A DNA stretch of 35,695 bases from positions 1 through 35,695 of the forward strand of contig NZ_SWJZ01000156.1 in the NCBI RefSeq assembly GCF_005144475.1, read 5' to 3'. The notes below the pieces were generated by a model that saw nothing but the letters and a program-made list of their open reading frames with translations, searched no databases and was not told the origin of the DNA. A program made the translations under genes and the position numbers. The stretch is from Rhodobacter capsulatus (GTDB taxonomy: Bacteria; Pseudomonadota; Alphaproteobacteria; Rhodobacterales; Rhodobacteraceae). Below, one piece after another: positions 29,527 to 35,695 of the stretch (the first letter of the stretch is position 1; every line of letters begins with the position of its first letter).

Positions 29527-29876
29527 GAGCGCAGGCCTATTGGTGGCCCGTCGGCGGGGGAAACCTTGCGCTGCACTTTGCACAGGGGGCCGATTGGCCC
29601 AGTCGCTGCGCCGTGTCTGAACGGCTGGTTTGACGGCCTGCGCCGGGAGCGCCGACCGGCGGCTAAGGGCCGTGTACGTCGATCCACACTGCTTGGTGCC
29701 GGGGATTTGCAAGTCTGTAAAATACTCGGTACGGCATTCCTCGTGCCCTACCCGCGAATGACGGCTGTCGTCGATTTGTTGCGGCTGCGATGCAGTGGCC
29801 TCGCAGCCCACCTATCGCTCTCTTTTGCCGATCGAGGTCGTTCGAGGCCAACTGCGAAGCCCCAAGCGGGCGCCAT
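29527..29876. other. Boundary region without a gene
   Basis: No frame is convincing in these 350 bp. Codon style changes here from the G/C-rich core to the looser element on the right, so an insertion boundary probably lies inside. I found no clear att repeat or tRNA. Confidence 0.45.
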
Positions 29877-30038
29877 TCACCCCTTCATGTAGCCCTTCTC
29901 ACGCAAATAATCCGCCAGCAGCTTTTCAATCAAGGACGTGAGAGAGCGATGATCGTCTTGCGCGGCCTGATCTGCAGCCTGCTTCAGTGTCGGCGTTATC
30001 CGGAGGTTCACCTGCGCAGATTTGGTTTCCCGTGACAT
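29877..30038 (-). CDS. Ribbon-helix-helix DNA-binding protein
   Basis: This is a short gene of 53 codons: MSRETKSAQVNLRITPTLK, QAADQAAQDDHRSLTSL, IEKLLADYLREKGYMKG. The first strand (SAQVNLRIT) and the two helices with S-L-T-S-L-I-E-K-L-L are typical of the CopG/Arc ribbon-helix-helix fold. AGAGGAAA precedes the ATG. It faces away from the 172-aa gene across a gap with a GTATA/TATAC dyad, so it is a likely local repressor of the element. Confidence 0.85.
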   Translation of the reverse strand: MSRETKSAQVNLRITPTLKQAADQAAQDDHRSLTSLIEKLLADYLREKGYMKG

Positions 30039-30073
30039 TGTGTAGATTTCCTCTTTACAATTCAGGAATCAAT

Positions 30074-30087
30074 GTATAGATATATAC
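30074..30087. promoter_or_regulatory. Candidate RHH operator
   Basis: GTATA-GATA-TATAC is a 5-bp dyad in an unusually A/T-rich stretch between the divergent RHH gene and the 172-aa gene. It overlaps the likely promoters of both, a common place for autoregulation by ribbon-helix-helix proteins. Confidence 0.45.
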
Positions 30088-30166
30088 TACAAAAAGCAAG
30101 CGGACCGCTGCGATGCTGGAACATCGCAGCAGCCCTGATCACAGGCAATCTGTTAGGAGATCAGCC

Positions 30167-30685
30167 ATGACTACCTCGTCTATTATCATCGGCATCAACG
30201 TCTCGGAACCCCGTTTTTCGACCGCTATCACGCCCTGTGGCGATGCGTTTGCCGCTCTTCTAGCGGCTCTCCCTGGCTATTACGAGGCGGAGCGGGACCT
30301 TGACGGGATCGACCCGCACGACTTCGCCTGTGACGCGTGGATTACGGCCGCCGAGCGCGCCAGGAGCGAAGTTATCGCGGCCCTCGATGCAGTGATCGAT
30401 GCGAAGCCGCAGGTTCAAAGCGATTTGCACTTGCGGCGTGTCGCTCTGTTGTTCTCGACGGCGCTGCGGACTATTGACCCGCTGGTTTATTCCCGCATCC
30501 ACGGGGCGATGCGCGACCTGCCGTGGCTTTATCGCGTTCCCGGGCGCAATCTGAGCGCGCAGCATGCAACGCTCCAGTTGCGGGCGCTCCGCGCTCACCT
30601 GCTTGCGCTGATGAGGCTCGGAGAATTCCAACCGGAATTCGAGGTCATCGATCAGGACAGCGAGTTTCCGGTTCCTGCCTTCTGA
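30167..30685 (+). CDS. Hypothetical protein, 172 aa
   Basis: The protein begins MTTSSIIIGINVSEPRFSTA after a good TTAGGAG site; an earlier in-frame start was rejected for lacking one. It is mostly helical (LAALPGYYEAERDLDG, ITAAERARSEVIAALDAVID, QLRALRAHLLALMRLGEF). I see no domain, metal site or signal peptide. Less biased codon use fits an accessory element. It is the first gene of the rightward module that contains the GIY-YIG and AAA-protease genes. Confidence 0.65.
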   Translation: MTTSSIIIGINVSEPRFSTAITPCGDAFAALLAALPGYYEAERDLDGIDPHDFACDAWITAAERARSEVIAALDAVIDAKPQVQSDLHLRRVALLFSTALRTIDPLVYSRIHGAMRDLPWLYRVPGRNLSAQHATLQLRALRAHLLALMRLGEFQPEFEVIDQDSEFPVPAF

Positions 30686-30775
30686 TTTCCCTTGAACGTT
30701 TTGAGGCCGACGAGGGCTCCCTGCATAGCAAGGAGCTTCGTCGAAGACGATCTGCGGTTTGATAAGGGGGTGCTC

Positions 30776-31723
30776 ATGACCCATCCGATTACCGAGTTTT
30801 CCGAGAAGCCTGTCGTAATCGACGGAGTTTCCGTTCCGCGCCACCTTGGCCCGCTTCATGCTCACTGGCAGATTGCAGCGCGCGCGCGGGGGGCGACGAT
30901 CGTCGCGCGCGTCAGGGATCGCCTTCACGTAGCGCTGCGGTGTGAGATTTGCGGCGGGCTGTGGATTTCGCGTGTTTCGGTGGTGCTGGGCTAGCAGCCA
31001 CAGTGCCCTCATTGCCTCGATGATGCGCGGCTGAATAATGCGGCGCAGGCCGAGGTTGATTTTCAGCGGCGTGACCCTGACGATCGGCACTATGCCTATT
31101 ATCGTTCTGCCTGCGGACACGAGATCCGGCGGCAGATCCACCGCGTTGCGCGAGTCGCGTCGGAGCCGCAAAACCTCCGGTGTGAGACCTGTCTCGCCGA
31201 GCGCGATGCGGAAGTCGCGGCGCAACGGGGTTGGGAGCTACTCGGGCCTGATCCCGATAGGGGGGCGAACTATCGCCGCTATCGCCATGGCGCGTGCGGT
31301 CACAAGCAGTCGATTGCCAGAGTTAACGTAGAGACAGGGCGTGTCACCTGCCATGACTGTGGGGAGTCCTGGATCACAGCGCCGAACTCGATCTATCTTC
31401 TGGAGATCATCCTGCGGGACGGGACCAAGGTGCTCAAGCTGGGGCATTCTCGCGATCCTGATTCAAGGCTGAATCACCAATTGATCGCCGACGATACCGT
31501 CCAGGGCGCGGTGCGGCGGGTCTTACCGATGCCGAACGGTCTTGATGCGCAACGCGCAGAACGCAGGTTGCATGTGATCATACGCAACACTTTGCCGATC
31601 GCGGTGGTGCCGCACGAGGTCTACGACGGTGCATTGCGGGTCAAATCGGAGATCTATTACCCAGCGGCGTCGGAACTGATCCACGATCTTCTGGACGCGA
31701 CAGCGCGTCGTTACGCGGCCTAA
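30776..31723 (+). pseudogene. Zinc-ribbon/GIY-YIG nuclease-like protein with in-frame TAG at codon 73
   Basis: ATG 30776 (GGGGG upstream) opens a frame that stops at TAG 30992-30994 after 72 aa. The same frame then stays open for another 242 codons to 31723. C56-x-x-C59 lies before the TAG and C77-x-x-C80 just after it, so the stop splits one zinc ribbon. Two more follow: ACGH at 112-115 with CETC at 136-139, and ACGH at 173-176 with CHDC at 192-195. A GIY-YIG-like domain begins at about 205: SIYLLEI then KVLKLGHSRDPDSRLNHQL. There is no ATG, GTG or TTG in frame from the TAG until GTG at codon 219, so the second part could not start on its own. It is a nonsense mutant or an amber read-through gene. 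Confidence 0.75.
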
Positions 31724-31796
31724 GTCTCTCACATTTCAACCGATTTTTCCCGGCGGGAGACTGCCGGGCCCCCTCTTTTTGCCGATGGAGGCCGCC

Positions 31797-33959
31797 ATGA
31801 TTCCCACTGATGTTCAACAACTTGCGCCATGGCACGCGGTTGCCGATGCTATTTTTGCGCGGATCGATGTGCCCCCGGATCTGCCTGGACCGGCAGAAGC
31901 TGCCGCGACGGCCGCTGTTTCCGATTCAATTGAGGCGCAAAGTGACCCTCGCCAGATGACTCGGGAGGAGTTGGATGCGTGGATTGACGAGCCGCTCGTC
32001 CCGGCCCCCAAAGCGCCTGCGCCGCCGCCGGTCCGACCGCAGATGGGGCTGCGCGCGCGGTTGCTGCTTTTGCGGCTCGCGGCGGGGATCGGAACGATGG
32101 ATCAACTCGCGGCATTCTCAGCGCCGGCGGCACTGACGGTGATCGAGGGCACATCTTGGGATCAGGCGCGCGACACTGTCGGCCTCCTGACCGATCATGT
32201 CCTGCCCGCATCCTGCGTGGCTGCAGGCTCCGGCGCGCGCGCGAACCATCGGGTGCTTCGGCCCGAGACGTCGAGTCGCCCGCCGCTCTCAGCGGCAGAT
32301 GCGGAACGGTTTGCGGAGGCGATCCGCTCCTCCCTCACCCACCCGGACCCGGTCGTGATCTTGCTGCCCATTGGCGTTACACTCGACCCGTCGATCATGG
32401 CGTGCGCGCCGATGCGTATCCGGGCCGCACCGATTTCTTCGGCGATCCTCGCCGTGTTCTGGCGCGCGACGGTGACGGATCTTGCGCCCGAGCACCTTGC
32501 CGACGCTGTGGCGATCCTGCCGCCTGATGGGCATCTCGCGGGCCTTCCCGAGACTGTCGTGCTGCACGCGTTGCGCGCAGGCGATCCTGTCACCGCGGCG
32601 CGCCGACTAGCAGCGGCCTGCGCGCAGGCTCCGGGCGGCCCCTGCCTTTCGGACCTTTCGCCGTGCCCTGCCGTCGAGGCTGCTCGAGGCCTAATTGACG
32701 GGGTGCGCGCATGGCAATCGGGCAGCGCCGCTTGGAGCGAGATCGAGCATTCCCTCCTGTTCTATGGTCCGCCCGGCACCGGCAAAACGTGGCTTGCGCG
32801 TGCGCTCGGGAGCGAGCCGGGCGTCCGGTTTGTGCAGTCGTCGTTTGCTGAATGGCAATCAGCCGGGCATCTGGGCAACATGCTTGCCGCGATGCGGGCG
32901 TCGTTTGCTGAAGCCGTTGCTGCTCGTCCCTGCGTGCTGTTCATCGACGAGATCGATGCGGCGGGATCGCGCGACGACCATGACTCGCACAACGCTGGTT
33001 ACCGCAGGCAAGTTATCAACGGTTTTCTGGAGCAGATCGACCAACTCAACAAATCCGGAGGCGTGCTGCTGGTGGGAGCGTGTAACAACCCTGATGCGCT
33101 TGATCCCGCAATCCGGCGCGCCGGTCGGTTCGACCGCAGCATTGAAGTACCGCTGCCCGATCGGGGAGCCATTATGACGATGCTCACGGCGGCGCTCGGA
33201 TCGTATCTGTCTCCCGCCGAGATCGAGACGTTGGCACGGCGCGGCACTGGACTTAGCGCCGCGGCGGTCGACGCGATGATCCGCGCCGGGCGGTCCCGCG
33301 CGCGCGCTGCGGGTCGAGACCTGACCATCGACGACCTCGTTGCACATGCCCCTGGAGACGCCCCCGACCCCGCGGTCGACTGGCGTGTGGCTGTTCACGA
33401 AGCGGGCCACGCGCTTGTGGCAAAAGCTCTTGGCCTCGGGCGGGTCAACCGGGTCTCGATCACTGGAGCCGGAGGCCTGACAGAGCGGACGCGCGCGCTC
33501 ACACAAGGGCGGCTCGAAGATCTGGAGCGTGAACTCACAGCGATGATGGCGGGGCGAGCGGCGGAACGTCTGGTTTTGGGCGACGTGACGGCTGGGTCGG
33601 GTGGCGACGAGACGTCTGATCTCGCCCACGCAACACGCCTCGCCACCGCGATCGAGGCGCAGCTGGGCCTCGGTGAGATGGGGCCGGTCTGGTACGGCGA
33701 GGCCGATGCGCTGCTGCTCCGCTCTCCACAATTCTTTTCGCGCGTGCGTGCGCGCTTGGAGGCAGCTGAGGTACAAGCCCTTCAGACTTTGCGGCCTCAT
33801 GTGGGGTCGTTGCGGGCTCTGGCCGCACGCTTGGTCGTTGAGCGCGAGCTTGGCGGCGAGGAGTTGCGCCAGGCCCTTTTTCTTCCCTCGGCGCCATCGG
33901 GCGTTACGCTGATCGTTGCCGAAGGTGAGGAGGCCGCATCATGCCCGCACCCGATCTGA
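31797..33959 (+). CDS. Soluble FtsH-like AAA+ protease (AAA domain plus M41 peptidase)
   Basis: The protein is 720 aa. ATG 31797 has GGAGG 6 bases upstream. Residues 1 to about 285 are an unrecognised Ala/Pro-rich domain without the transmembrane helices of FtsH. The AAA domain follows: Walker A GPPGTGKT (325-332), Walker B LFIDEID with D384-E385, and second-region-of-homology arginines RRAGRFDR. The M41 zinc protease comes next: H534-E-x-x-H538 and the third ligand D608 in DETSDLAHAT. All catalytic residues are present. FtsH proteins unfold and degrade proteins with ATP; this one should act in the cytoplasm. A small gene overlaps its end. Such a protease on a recombinase element could clear a repressor, toxin or phage protein. 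Confidence 0.9.
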   Translation: MIPTDVQQLAPWHAVADAIFARIDVPPDLPGPAEAAATAAVSDSIEAQSDPRQMTREELDAWIDEPLVPAPKAPAPPPVRPQMGLRARLLLLRLAAGIGTMDQLAAFSAPAALTVIEGTSWDQARDTVGLLTDHVLPASCVAAGSGARANHRVLRPETSSRPPLSAADAERFAEAIRSSLTHPDPVVILLPIGVTLDPSIMACAPMRIRAAPISSAILAVFWRATVTDLAPEHLADAVAILPPDGHLAGLPETVVLHALRAGDPVTAARRLAAACAQAPGGPCLSDLSPCPAVEAARGLIDGVRAWQSGSAAWSEIEHSLLFYGPPGTGKTWLARALGSEPGVRFVQSSFAEWQSAGHLGNMLAAMRASFAEAVAARPCVLFIDEIDAAGSRDDHDSHNAGYRRQVINGFLEQIDQLNKSGGVLLVGACNNPDALDPAIRRAGRFDRSIEVPLPDRGAIMTMLTAALGSYLSPAEIETLARRGTGLSAAAVDAMIRAGRSRARAAGRDLTIDDLVAHAPGDAPDPAVDWRVAVHEAGHALVAKALGLGRVNRVSITGAGGLTERTRALTQGRLEDLERELTAMMAGRAAERLVLGDVTAGSGGDETSDLAHATRLATAIEAQLGLGEMGPVWYGEADALLLRSPQFFSRVRARLEAAEVQALQTLRPHVGSLRALAARLVVERELGGEELRQALFLPSAPSGVTLIVAEGEEAASCPHPI

Positions 33960-34330
33960 TCGAACGGCTGGATGGAGCGCTGCGGGACATCTCTGAGGGG
34001 ATCGACCCCGAAGCATGGTATTCAATTCCGCTCATCGACGCGTGGGCATGTCTTCGTGATGGTCAGATTCCGCGGATCTGGGGGCACTCGAACAGAGCGC
34101 CGGGATCGGTGAGTATCCTGACCGGCCCGATCCTTCACATAACATGGGATTCGGCTGCGGTGCGCGCCCTCGAGGGCTGGTACCGGCTCGGACGCCGTGC
34201 CGAAGGTGACACGCCGCTCACGCCACCCTCTGCGCCGCGCGCACTCCTCTCGGGGCCTGCGTTTCGGGCTCGGGTCCATGGTTTTGCGGCGAAGGTCGAT
34301 CGCGTGGTCAAAGACGCAGACCACTGCTAG
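33941..34330 (+). CDS. Small protein overlapping the AAA protease gene
   Basis: This 129-aa protein starts MPAPDLIERLDGALRDISEG; its ATG lies 19 bases inside the protease gene, with GGTGAGGAGG in front, so translation is coupled. It contains WYSIPLIDAWACLRDGQIPRIW and TGPILHITWDSAAVRALEGWYRLG. I recognise no domain. Tight overlap suggests an adaptor, inhibitor or substrate of the protease. The stop is TAG. Confidence 0.75.
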   Translation: MPAPDLIERLDGALRDISEGIDPEAWYSIPLIDAWACLRDGQIPRIWGHSNRAPGSVSILTGPILHITWDSAAVRALEGWYRLGRRAEGDTPLTPPSAPRALLSGPAFRARVHGFAAKVDRVVKDADHC

Positions 34331-34340
34331 GTAAGGCCGC

Positions 34341-34585
34341 ACCACCTTCTCTTTTCTTCTTTCCAGGGGCACCGCGCGATGTGTCTCTTCCGCTTTTGCT
34401 TCTTTTTCGAGGTGCGCCACGATGCCCCTTCTTTCTTCTCCCCTCTCCCCTTTTCTTTCTTCTTCCCCTTCTCTTCTCTCTTCACATCCCGCTTGCGCGT
34501 CTTTTTCGTCTTTTTGTTTTGCTGTGCGATTTGCACCTCGCCTGTCGGCGCCTCTTTGCCTGCTTTTTCTGTTGACTTTTTCTCG
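34341..34585. other. Polypyrimidine-rich tract with a 59-nt pure C/T run
   Basis: The plus strand is mostly C and T across about 245 bp, and 34425-34483 contains no purine at all. This is highly unusual in this GC-rich, unskewed DNA. Frames through it encode Phe/Ser-rich (plus) or Lys/Glu-rich (minus, 34327-34614) low-complexity peptides with no good start signals, so I do not call a gene. It may be a structural element (triplex-forming DNA, Rho loading or pausing on RNA). Confidence 0.7.
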
Positions 34586-34812
34586 GAATAGAAGACGCAG
34601 CGCCCCGTCATCATTTTTCAAGTTCCGGATTTTGCCGAGCCCGCCCTCACGCGGGAGGACGGATGTTCTCAATTTTTGCCCGCGCCCCTTGACGTTTCGC
34701 GTGTCAGCGCTGATGCAACAGCGCCAAACCGGGAGGTTTTCCACAATTTCGCGCAGGGATCACCGCGCTGCGCCGCAAATCCGACTCGGTAGAGTGATTC
34801 GTTCCGGCTATA

Positions 34813-34851
34813 TTGATCTCCACGCCGCCGCAGAGGCGGGACCGAGATCAA
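34813..34851. promoter_or_regulatory. 39-bp nested dyad upstream of the recombinase genes
   Basis: TTGATCTC (34813-34820) pairs perfectly with GAGATCAA (34844-34851). Inside, CCGCC (34825-34829) pairs with GGCGG (34835-34839) around a 5-base loop, with 4-base symmetric internal loops. This can fold as a strong RNA hairpin or be a dimer binding site. It lies 49 bp before the small ORF at 34900. Confidence 0.6.
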
Positions 34852-34899
34852 CCATCATTGACGCATCGGGCCAAGGCCCGGTGCGGGGAGCACCCTGCG

Positions 34900-35079
34900 A
34901 TGTCGCGGGCACGGATCATTTTGGCGAAGAGCAGCGATGCCGGTCCTCCGGGGGGCGGCGCCATGCGACCGGCCGTCTTGGAACTGACGCCCCCACATCC
35001 CGGCCTTGTCGCGCTGGCGCGGCTTTTGGCGAGACAAGCTGCGCGCGAAGCGCGCGCGTGCCATACTGATGCAAGCTGA
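34900..35079 (+). CDS. Small protein encoded just before the recombinase
   Basis: The product is 59 aa, starting MSRARIILAKSSDAGPPGG. The C-terminal helix HPGLVALARLLARQAAREAR has good coding bias, and GGGGAG lies upstream at a longish spacing. It ends 11 bp before the recombinase start, whose GGAGGTGAGC ribosome site follows directly. Small helical ORFs of this type commonly precede serine recombinases on alphaproteobacterial elements and may act with them, but its function is unknown to me. Confidence 0.6.
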   Translation: MSRARIILAKSSDAGPPGGGAMRPAVLELTPPHPGLVALARLLARQAAREARACHTDAS

Positions 35080-35090
35080 CGGAGGTGAGC

Positions 35091-35695
35091 ATGACGACTC
35101 GGACTGCCCCCCTGCGCGCGGCGATCTACGCGCGCTATTCTTCGGATCTTCAGTCGGCGGCCTCGATCCCGGATCAAATCCGCCTTTGTCGGCGGCTCTG
35201 CGAGGAGCGCGGCTGGACCGTGGTTGAGATCTTCGCTGACGAGGCAATGAGCGGAGCGTCTCACCTGCGCCCGGATTTTCAACGCCTGCAGCAGGCGGCG
35301 ATGGCCGGGCAGTTCGATGTTCTGGTCGCCGAGGCGCTCGACCGGCTGTCGCGCGATCAAGAACACATCGCCGGGCTGCATAAGCGGATGCGCTATCTCG
35401 GAGTGGAGATATTCACCAAGGCGGAAGGCGCGATCAGCGAGATGCACATCGGGTTGGGCGGCACGATGTCTGCGCTCTTCCTGCGCAATTTGGCTGAGAA
35501 GACGCACCGCGGCCTCGAGGGGCGGGTCAAGGCCGGCAAGTCGGCTGGAGGTATCAGCTACGGGTATCGGCTTGACCGCCAGCCGCTGCCTGACGGGTCG
35601 TTCACGACCGGAGACCGGGTGATCGACGAGGCGGAGGCCGCGATCATTCGGCGGATTTTCACGGAATATGACCGGGGGCGCAGTGCGCGGGCGAT
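35091..35695 (+). CDS. Large serine recombinase, 5' part (runs off the window)
   Basis: After GGAGGTGAGC, ATG 35091 begins MTTRTAPLRAAIYARYSSDL. The R-Y-S-S holds the catalytic serine of the resolvase domain, followed by SIPDQIRLCRRLCEERGW, FADEAMSGASHLRPDFQRL, VLVAEALDRLSRDQEH, then the long helix and the start of the recombinase domain (GGISYGYRLDRQPLPDG). At least 201 codons are open to the end. Large serine recombinases integrate and excise phages and integrative elements, so this marks 29.9-35.7 kb as part of such an element. Confidence 0.95.
   Translation, partial: MTTRTAPLRAAIYARYSSDLQSAASIPDQIRLCRRLCEERGWTVVEIFADEAMSGASHLRPDFQRLQQAAMAGQFDVLVAEALDRLSRDQEHIAGLHKRMRYLGVEIFTKAEGAISEMHIGLGGTMSALFLRNLAEKTHRGLEGRVKAGKSAGGISYGYRLDRQPLPDGSFTTGDRVIDEAEAAIIRRIFTEYDRGRSARA

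Follow-up and report, generated by a model that had tools for sequence, protein, structure and literature searches.

A recurrent gene cassette of Rhodobacteraceae with interchangeable nucleases and AAA+ motors behind a conserved leader

A cassette at the end of a Rhodobacter capsulatus contig

We analyzed a 35,695-nucleotide stretch of Rhodobacter capsulatus DNA (the window), the first 35695 bases of contig NZ_SWJZ01000156.1 (36508 long). Its right end carries a cassette made up of a divergent ribbon-helix-helix (RHH) repressor gene, a leader, a gene for a 172-residue protein (p172), a GIY-YIG nuclease gene and a gene for an FtsH-like AAA/M41 protease, with an overlapping open reading frame (ORF) for a DUF6634-like protein of 129 residues (p129) and a large serine recombinase gene behind it (Table 1). 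A first-pass annotation had described this gene set, and its members are all in place except that the GIY-YIG gene is not intact, being interrupted by an in-frame TAG at 30992-30994. Up to position 29592 the window is collinear with sister genome G408, at 91-92% identity in the part compared (from 24001 on); past that point G408 carries different DNA and the window carries the cassette region.

Table 1. Features of the cassette region, in positions of the window (aa, amino acids; RBS, ribosome-binding site)
Feature	Position	Strand	Remarks
Left edge of foreign DNA	29593..29876		synteny break with G408
RHH (Arc/CopG-like) repressor, 53 aa	29877..30038	-	divergent from the operon; recurs at the same place in relatives
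Structured RNA leader of p172	30096..30169	+	hairpin, conserved CTRAYC stretch, RBS region, AUG
p172, 172 aa	30167..30685	+	predicted all-helical; no known family
GIY-YIG nuclease (T5orf172/MUG113-like)	30776..31723	+	several Cys pairs; split by TAG
FtsH-like M41 protease, 720 aa	31797..33959	+	predicted tandem-AAA
Predicted degenerate AAA+ domain D1, residues 82-315	32040..32741	+	without Walker A
AAA+ domain D2, residues 320-453	32754..33155	+	Walker motifs (Pfam AAA)
Peptidase M41 domain, residues 531-689	33387..33863	+	HEAGH at H534
DUF6634-like protein p129, 129 aa	33941..34330	+	optional; 19-nt overlap with the protease gene
Small ORF	34900..35079	+	directly 5' of the recombinase
Large serine recombinase	35085 (or 35091)..35695 in the window	+	Resolvase 1.3e-25; frame open to contig end 36508

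The gene order recurs on chromosomes and plasmids

The same gene order is found in dozens of loci, more than chance would produce, and the association is real. Our family sample held 394 genomes and our order sample 292, with genomes shared between the two. Using the protease profile as bait at an expectation value (E) of at most 1e-100, we identified 42 places in 33 of the 394 family genomes and fetched the flanks of 39. p172, a nuclease and the AAA gene occurred together in 26 of these 39 flanks, and all four components including RHH in 22. Counted singly, RHH was present in 24, p172 in 27 and a nuclease in 28 (21 GIY-YIG and 7 PD-(D/E)XK). The first-pass proposal of an undescribed conserved module, a nuclease and a protease under a divergent RHH gene and often on mobile elements, is thus borne out, as is the conserved association of protease with nuclease; p129, offered there as a fixed partner, appeared in only 2 of the 39 loci.

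Other components were used as bait as well. The GIY-YIG bait matched 33 places in 25 family genomes and 53 places in 39 of the 292 order genomes. We examined 22 of these 53 places, from 18 genomes; the choice fell on 20 because of their long contigs and novelty and on two in order to check a stop codon. Of the 22, 20 had p172, 19 RHH and 19 the protease, which is missing from L166 and L174 (both cut by a contig end) and from L186. The p172 bait matched 23 of the 394 genomes. On Rhodobacterales plasmids, public annotation and hidden Markov model searches revealed RHH on the minus strand, then p172, GIY-YIG and AAA/M41, for example in Paracoccus alcaliphilus (L009), P. yeei (L012/L016), P. aestuarii (L019), P. 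marcusii (L017) and Antarctobacter (L021), with RHH not detected in all of them; p172, nuclease and AAA were together in nine of the 15 plasmid loci examined, and six of the 15 also had RHH. A scan of genome contigs with the protease yielded no confirmed relative, and a plasmid tblastn and the genome search served instead.

Parts of the cassette have been exchanged between loci. L069 and L072 share protease and recombinase (synonymous divergence, dS, 0.36 and 0.17), and their RHH, p172b and nuclease genes are far apart; L072 and L075 share p172b and nuclease, not RHH; and L055 and L056 share everything from p172 to the protease next to divergent recombinases (nonsynonymous divergence, dN, 0.59). 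p172 itself gave no informative match in a fold search (best E 0.35). Two tandem p172-like genes stand behind a single RHH gene in L138 and L082.

The nuclease slot holds unrelated enzymes

The nuclease slot is interchangeable, being filled by non-homologous GIY-YIG or PD-(D/E)XK proteins and perhaps by a CoiA-like one. In the GIY-YIG family Y205, K219, G221, S223, R229, E266, H270 and E296 (L057 numbering) are invariant in 18 of 18 aligned rows including the window, and we take these Y, K..G.S, R, E, H and E positions to be of the catalytic type of the class. The window fragment falls below the Pfam gathering scores of T5orf172 and MUG113 (13.6 bits where 20 are required, and 16.3 where 22.3 are), and the L057 nuclease has no Pfam match at E ≤ 0.1. 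The second family, unrelated to the first, has E, D and QVK motifs of the PD-(D/E)XK type. Its match to PDDEXK_5 is just above the cut-off in L096 (7.5e-6), below it in L076 (1.6e-3), L080 (7.6e-3) and L022 (0.24), and absent at 0.1 in L055. The slot of L065 encodes a 448-residue protein with weak likeness to CoiA/DUF6035 (E 0.11 and 0.21), which is perhaps CoiA-like.

The TAG in the window divides the nuclease frame into 72 and 242 codons and sits between two Cys-pair segments. Because every other alignment row covering this position has a sense codon, the nuclease of the window copy is probably dead, unless the TAG base is a sequencing error. The relative L186 (genome G540), in which no partner genes were detected, has an internal TAG at another place (L186 3223-3225), as if nuclease loss were recurrent. 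The TAGs of L063, L064 and L162 stand at the end of the gene and are not internal.

A predicted double-AAA protease and its substitutes

The 720-residue protein matches Pfam AAA (7.4e-33) and Peptidase_M41 (2.1e-13). Its catalytic residues, which the first-pass annotation had reported to be complete, are indeed all there: an alignment of 13 rows shows no variation at the Walker A residues, at D384-E385 or at H534-E535/H538, and Walker A and HExGH are kept in 55 of 55 full-length frames, the window being included in both sets. Among close pairs, 27 of 34 dN/dS values were at most 0.351 (range 0.10-0.79), and six comparisons gave no value.

For the N-terminal region, previously described as a novel domain, the prediction is a degenerate AAA+ domain and not a new fold. 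A structural model of residues 82-315 built from 20 rows had a mean predicted local distance difference test score of 87.5, a predicted template modeling score of 0.77 and an alpha/beta order like that of AAA+ proteins. All 50 PDB matches listed by a fold search are titled AAA+ (by title, the chains not being individually checked); the best was the TRIP13 complex 6p8v (E 3.1e-3, probability 0.99, template modeling (TM) score 0.40), with no match at E ≤ 1e-3 and low TM-scores. A Walker A motif was missing from this region in 28 of 28 aligned rows. We read the domain as dead AAA on account of the titles of the listed matches, the topology, the top probability and the missing Walker A motif, and the whole protein, therefore, as a tandem-AAA protease. 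The 19-residue hydropathy maximum of the window protein, 1.94, lies within a domain predicted to be globular, compared to 2.69 in the host's own FtsH-type gene (L004); 18 of 55 relatives reach 1.6.

The motor slot is interchangeable as well, holding either the tandem-AAA protein with M41 or a Lon-type AAA ATPase without a protease, and such loci speak against the protease as an obligatory component. L127 and L128 encode a separate protein like the N-terminal domain (profile scores 1.4e-9 and 1.6e-14) next to such an ATPase, which in L127 matches the ATPase part only of TIGR00763 (3.8e-26); the ATPase of L125 resembles these two. Five protease relatives come from other Alphaproteobacterial orders. 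None of the five has p172, three have a DUF6634-like gene, four a metallophosphoesterase gene nearby and one a 3'-5' exonuclease gene. In L093, L094 and L097 the protease relative adjoins DUF6634-like and metallophosphoesterase genes, in one case also the 3'-5' exonuclease gene, and this arrangement is perhaps a sister system.

A conserved leader precedes p172

Between the promoter region and p172 lies a conserved stretch composed of a hairpin, CTRAYC(ACAA), GATC..AGGAGATC and often ATGGCT. We located leaders by word patterns, and 24 of 77 p172-type frames gave none, partly because the frame is a fragment. At least five of the outer six pairs of the first hairpin form in 36 of 51 unique leaders; when the 3' arms were shuffled 500 times, the average was 14.75 leaders and the highest count 24. 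The pair types include GC, AT, TA and CG. Another hairpin lies in the first 50 nt of the p172 gene and has at least five Watson-Crick pairs in 28 of 51 leaders. Codon shuffling, repeated 200 times, gave 6.3 on average and 14 at most, and positions further downstream gave 9 of 51. In the window sequence itself no such second hairpin is apparent. The second hairpin appears compensated despite varying amino acids in, for example, L130, L131 and L157. A proposed hairpin at the ribosome-binding site rests on single-sequence folds because a compensation test gave no excess (9 leaders with five of five pairs vs 11.9 in shuffles). For six leaders, folding gave z values between -1.9 and -2.7.

RNAalifold predicted no pair on a MAFFT alignment of the leaders, since sequence does not align the outer stem, so our leader model (R1) is sequence-only and the stem was tested by script. 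At E ≤ 0.01 the model matched 21 of the 248 family genomes searched, and all 24 matches at E ≤ 1e-5 in these 248 genomes fall at p172 or p172b starts. As the model was built from such leaders, these strong matches are not independent, and the informative part of the search is the lack of strong matches elsewhere.

Two known antisense RNA families resemble the leader below their gathering scores. The minus strand over the ribosome-binding site and AUG of p172 matches the full SymR model (RF01809) with 44.1 bits and E 1.4e-7 (gathering score 61), and the plus strand of the window matches the R1162-like antisense RNA (RF00043) with 26.6 bits (gathering score 55); the R1162-like match of L127 scores 41.9 bits. 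One or the other match was found at the leader in 4 of 13 sources (the window, L057, L072 and L127). An antisense sigma-70 promoter inside p172 was considered and rejected, with a mean score of 6.61 compared to 6.60 in codon-shuffled controls.

The cassette travels with serine recombinases, on plasmids and alone

A serine recombinase gene lies less than 5 kb away in 16 of 39 family loci and in 6 of the first 20 order-sample loci, and in many relatives the cassette is followed by a recombinase gene that can be about 600 codons long. In 11 of 16 loci compared the recombinase frame ends in initiator tRNA-Met sequence on the other strand, the five others being L013, L014, L055, L061 and L076. An intact tRNA-Met gene was called at the recombinase end in L054, L056, L057, L058, L071, L072, L075 and L086 and also in L157, L165, L085 and L130; only half a tRNA-Met is present in L081, in L083 and at a second recombinase piece in L068. 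The initiator tRNA-Met gene is not known as a usual target for this class of recombinase. In L086 tRNA-Ala and tRNA-Ile lie beyond tRNA-Met, and we presume a 5S rRNA near the site and an rRNA operon layout; since tRNA-Met adjoins rRNA genes, many contigs end at the recombinase. Host contigs C71 and C4 both stop inside the recombinase gene, which would fit such a site, but no gene end and no tRNA was seen there, and the left edge of the region bears no remnant of a tRNA. We found no displaced initiator tRNA half, at up to four mismatches, in the window or at the left ends of elements, where the search went up to about 50 kb into the L057 contig and less far into others. L068 and L081 share a sequence word after the half tRNA, possibly the left arm of the element (as a tandem copy or circle junction).

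The window recombinase shows a Resolvase domain, a full-length relative has three recombinase domains, and the C-terminal end of the window protein lies beyond the contig. The small ORF in front of it resembles, by eye, ORFs of 44-75 codons (..LVRLLARQAA..) at the same place in relatives; our guess is a directionality factor. To the left of RHH stand relaxase genes that pass the Pfam cut-off in L055 (Relaxase) and L057 (Mob_Pre) and match weakly in L083; those of L054, L058 and L090 were assigned by their likeness to the L083 gene. The one relaxase type that we modeled occurs in 5 of 39 family loci. None was seen in the window between the synteny break at 29593 and RHH.

The cassette is also present on plasmids and at chromosomal places with no detected serine recombinase. 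Genome G470 has two copies of the segment from RHH to the protease only (4275 bp, 99.8% identical), with no serine recombinase detected, and G506 has two copies (4657 bp, 99.98%) next to two recombinase genes that differ in their length and flanks. From these near-identical pairs we conclude that the cassette itself, not just the element, moved recently. The pairs are loci L155/L156 and L157/L158, and no terminal inverted repeats or target duplications were evident at the ends of the duplicated cassettes.

The host genome of the window has two further protease relatives. On contig C4 (L007 2511-4571) the protein is 78% identical from residue 190 on and is followed by p129 (60%) and a broken recombinase (92.5%); the first part of the protease is replaced by an in-frame fused gene that we take to be carboxymuconolactone-decarboxylase-like, which suggests a deletion at the left end. 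The relative on contig C29 (L008 8865-11268) has 524 residues, and the ORFs just upstream presumably encode an IS5-like transposase. In G408, the DNA past the synteny break looks terminase-like by eye (without a family search), and Rfam found no RNA genes in this replacement locus. A CRISPR-like repeat array lies directly behind the serine recombinase gene of L061.

Comparison with known systems

None of the known systems that we compared fits the cassette, and each of its proteins except p172 has its domains in a known superfamily. With FtsH the protease shares the order of AAA and M41, Walker A and B and HExxH; it differs in the extra dead AAA domain predicted in front, in its patchy occurrence and in having no evident FtsH-type membrane anchor, and it scores 160.7 bits against the FtsH family model TIGR01241 (cut-off 600). 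Among PADLOC models the AAA domain matches IetA best (4.7e-30), but this match is confined to residues 314-502 against IetA model positions 119-301 of 374, and the NCBIfam IteA score is 95 of 510 bits. No S8 or IetS subtilisin-type partner was matched among six scanned module proteins, and a nuclease is present instead. An S8 peptidase gene does lie some kb from the distant protease relative in L093.

The leader resembles SymE-SymR and R1162 in its layout of a hairpin, an unpaired stretch, a ribosome-binding site and AUG, and the R1162 consensus and many cassette leaders share CCUAACCA..GGAG..AUGGCUAC. Unlike in those systems, no SymE or Rep gene was seen and the antisense transcript is only putative. 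The Lon-type AAA without protease in the variant cassettes recalls BrxL of BREX, a likeness in idea only; BREX genes were not searched one by one. Relatives of the cassette combine relaxase and serine recombinase as integrative mobilizable elements do, whereas the window copy has no visible relaxase and the cassette also occurs on plasmids and away from recombinases. Titles and the beginnings of abstracts on M41/FtsH-like proteins with mobile elements or nucleases, DUF6634, initiator-tRNA recombinases and Rhodobacteraceae elements contained no description of the cassette. Passages of a study of Sulfitobacter plasmids count serine recombinases and MobQ relaxases and mention no FtsH, GIY-YIG or ribbon-helix-helix protein (PMC13386836).

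A possible motor-gated nuclease

We tentatively favor a main role as a motor-gated nuclease in conflict with phages or other mobile elements. The RHH repressor and the leader would keep expression low, and the AAA machine would sense or handle a partner protein, for which p172 and a DNA-bound complex are candidates, with the dead D1 domain perhaps serving as a substrate gate. Its action on the partner might then license the nuclease to cut competing or invading DNA. A scattered distribution, more than one type of carrier and exchanged catalytic parts are usual in conflict systems, and we count these features of the cassette toward such a role, together with the recurrence of the gene set, the conserved Walker A and HExGH residues and the dN/dS values. 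The fuller proposal is somewhat more doubtful. It supposes a new conflict system whose interchangeable nucleases (GIY-YIG, PD-(D/E)XK, perhaps CoiA-like) may be gated, through p172 as adaptor, by a machine of two AAA+ domains, D1 dead and D2 live, with an optional M41 protease and exchangeable for a Lon-type ATPase. RHH and the leader RNA would control the cassette, which would move autonomously between serine-recombinase elements.

Several observations count against this role. Defense islands, where the first-pass annotation had suggested looking, gave no enrichment: in 120 proteins each (120 of 322 and 120 of 124 eligible), defense families matched numbered 113 in the near flanks and 120 in far regions of the same contigs, which may themselves be islands (25 families displayed). 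Because near and far flanks did not differ, we dropped this comparison as support, and the defense-type neighbors of single loci (SAVED/nucleotidyltransferase in L011, BsuBI/PstI-type restriction in L096 and, by eye, an HsdM-like gene in L126) are anecdotal. PADLOC matches of the cassette are to AAA domains only. The nuclease gene is broken in the window copy and in L186. Thirteen of 39 protease loci have no detected p172 plus nuclease: L059, L066 and L085 are at or close to contig ends, L065 has p172 and perhaps the CoiA-like gene, L079 has GIY-YIG and RHH, and eight (L067, L068, L070, L077, L078, L084, L087 and L089) do not fit and have no evident excuse, with a DUF6634-like gene in L068, L084 and L089 (6.5 kb away in L089). 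In addition, p172 and RHH occur without a nuclease or AAA gene in L137 (a transposase gene next) and L138, and a GIY-YIG gene stands alone, as far as AAA genes were detected, in L130 and L131 and lacks p172 in L135.

The cassette could instead control its own element, with the AAA+ protease removing RHH or a protein bound to the relaxosome or recombinase and the nuclease processing element DNA for excision or transfer. The nearby serine recombinases, the relaxases in several loci, the divergent RHH gene and the resemblance of the leader to R1162/SymR antisense regions in 4 of 13 sources speak for such control. We nevertheless consider it unlikely as the main role: the cassette resides on plasmids and at chromosomal places without a detected serine recombinase, moved alone in G470 and beside two differing recombinase genes in G506, and is shared by L055 and L056 next to their divergent recombinases.

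In an addiction module, the nuclease would be a toxin with p172 or a putative antisense RNA as antitoxin, the protease would set antitoxin lifetime, and loss of the element would kill the cell. Swappable nucleases and mobile carriers agree with this, as does the SymR match over the start of p172; SymE, in turn, is limited by Lon. We judge this scheme slightly less likely still, as that match misses its cut-off, leader matches of this kind occur in only 4 of 13 sources, no antisense promoter signal rises above the codon-shuffled controls, and one p172 family pairs with different nucleases, unlike a cognate antitoxin. A housekeeping or stress paralogue of FtsH beside mobile genes by chance is very improbable, despite the M41 and AAA domains and a plasmid record that labels a relative 'ATP-dependent Zn protease', given the low FtsH_fam equivalog score, strong profile matches in just 33 of 394 genomes, recurring neighbors and a separate FtsH-type gene in the host genome (L004) with a clear N-terminal hydrophobic segment. 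This separate gene also speaks against the housekeeping use that the first-pass annotation had named as a refutation of its proposal.

If the cassette works as we propose, a DNA nuclease of a mobile element would be switched directly through AAA+ remodeling or proteolysis; neither the defense library nor the literature searched contained such a pairing. Unrelated nucleases and different motors around a core of p172, RHH and leader make this logic testable by part swapping. The tandem-AAA plus M41 design would make the protein a soluble FtsH relative with two AAA domains. Should the cassette serve element control instead, it still links initiator-tRNA serine-recombinase elements, plasmids and relaxases in Rhodobacteraceae.

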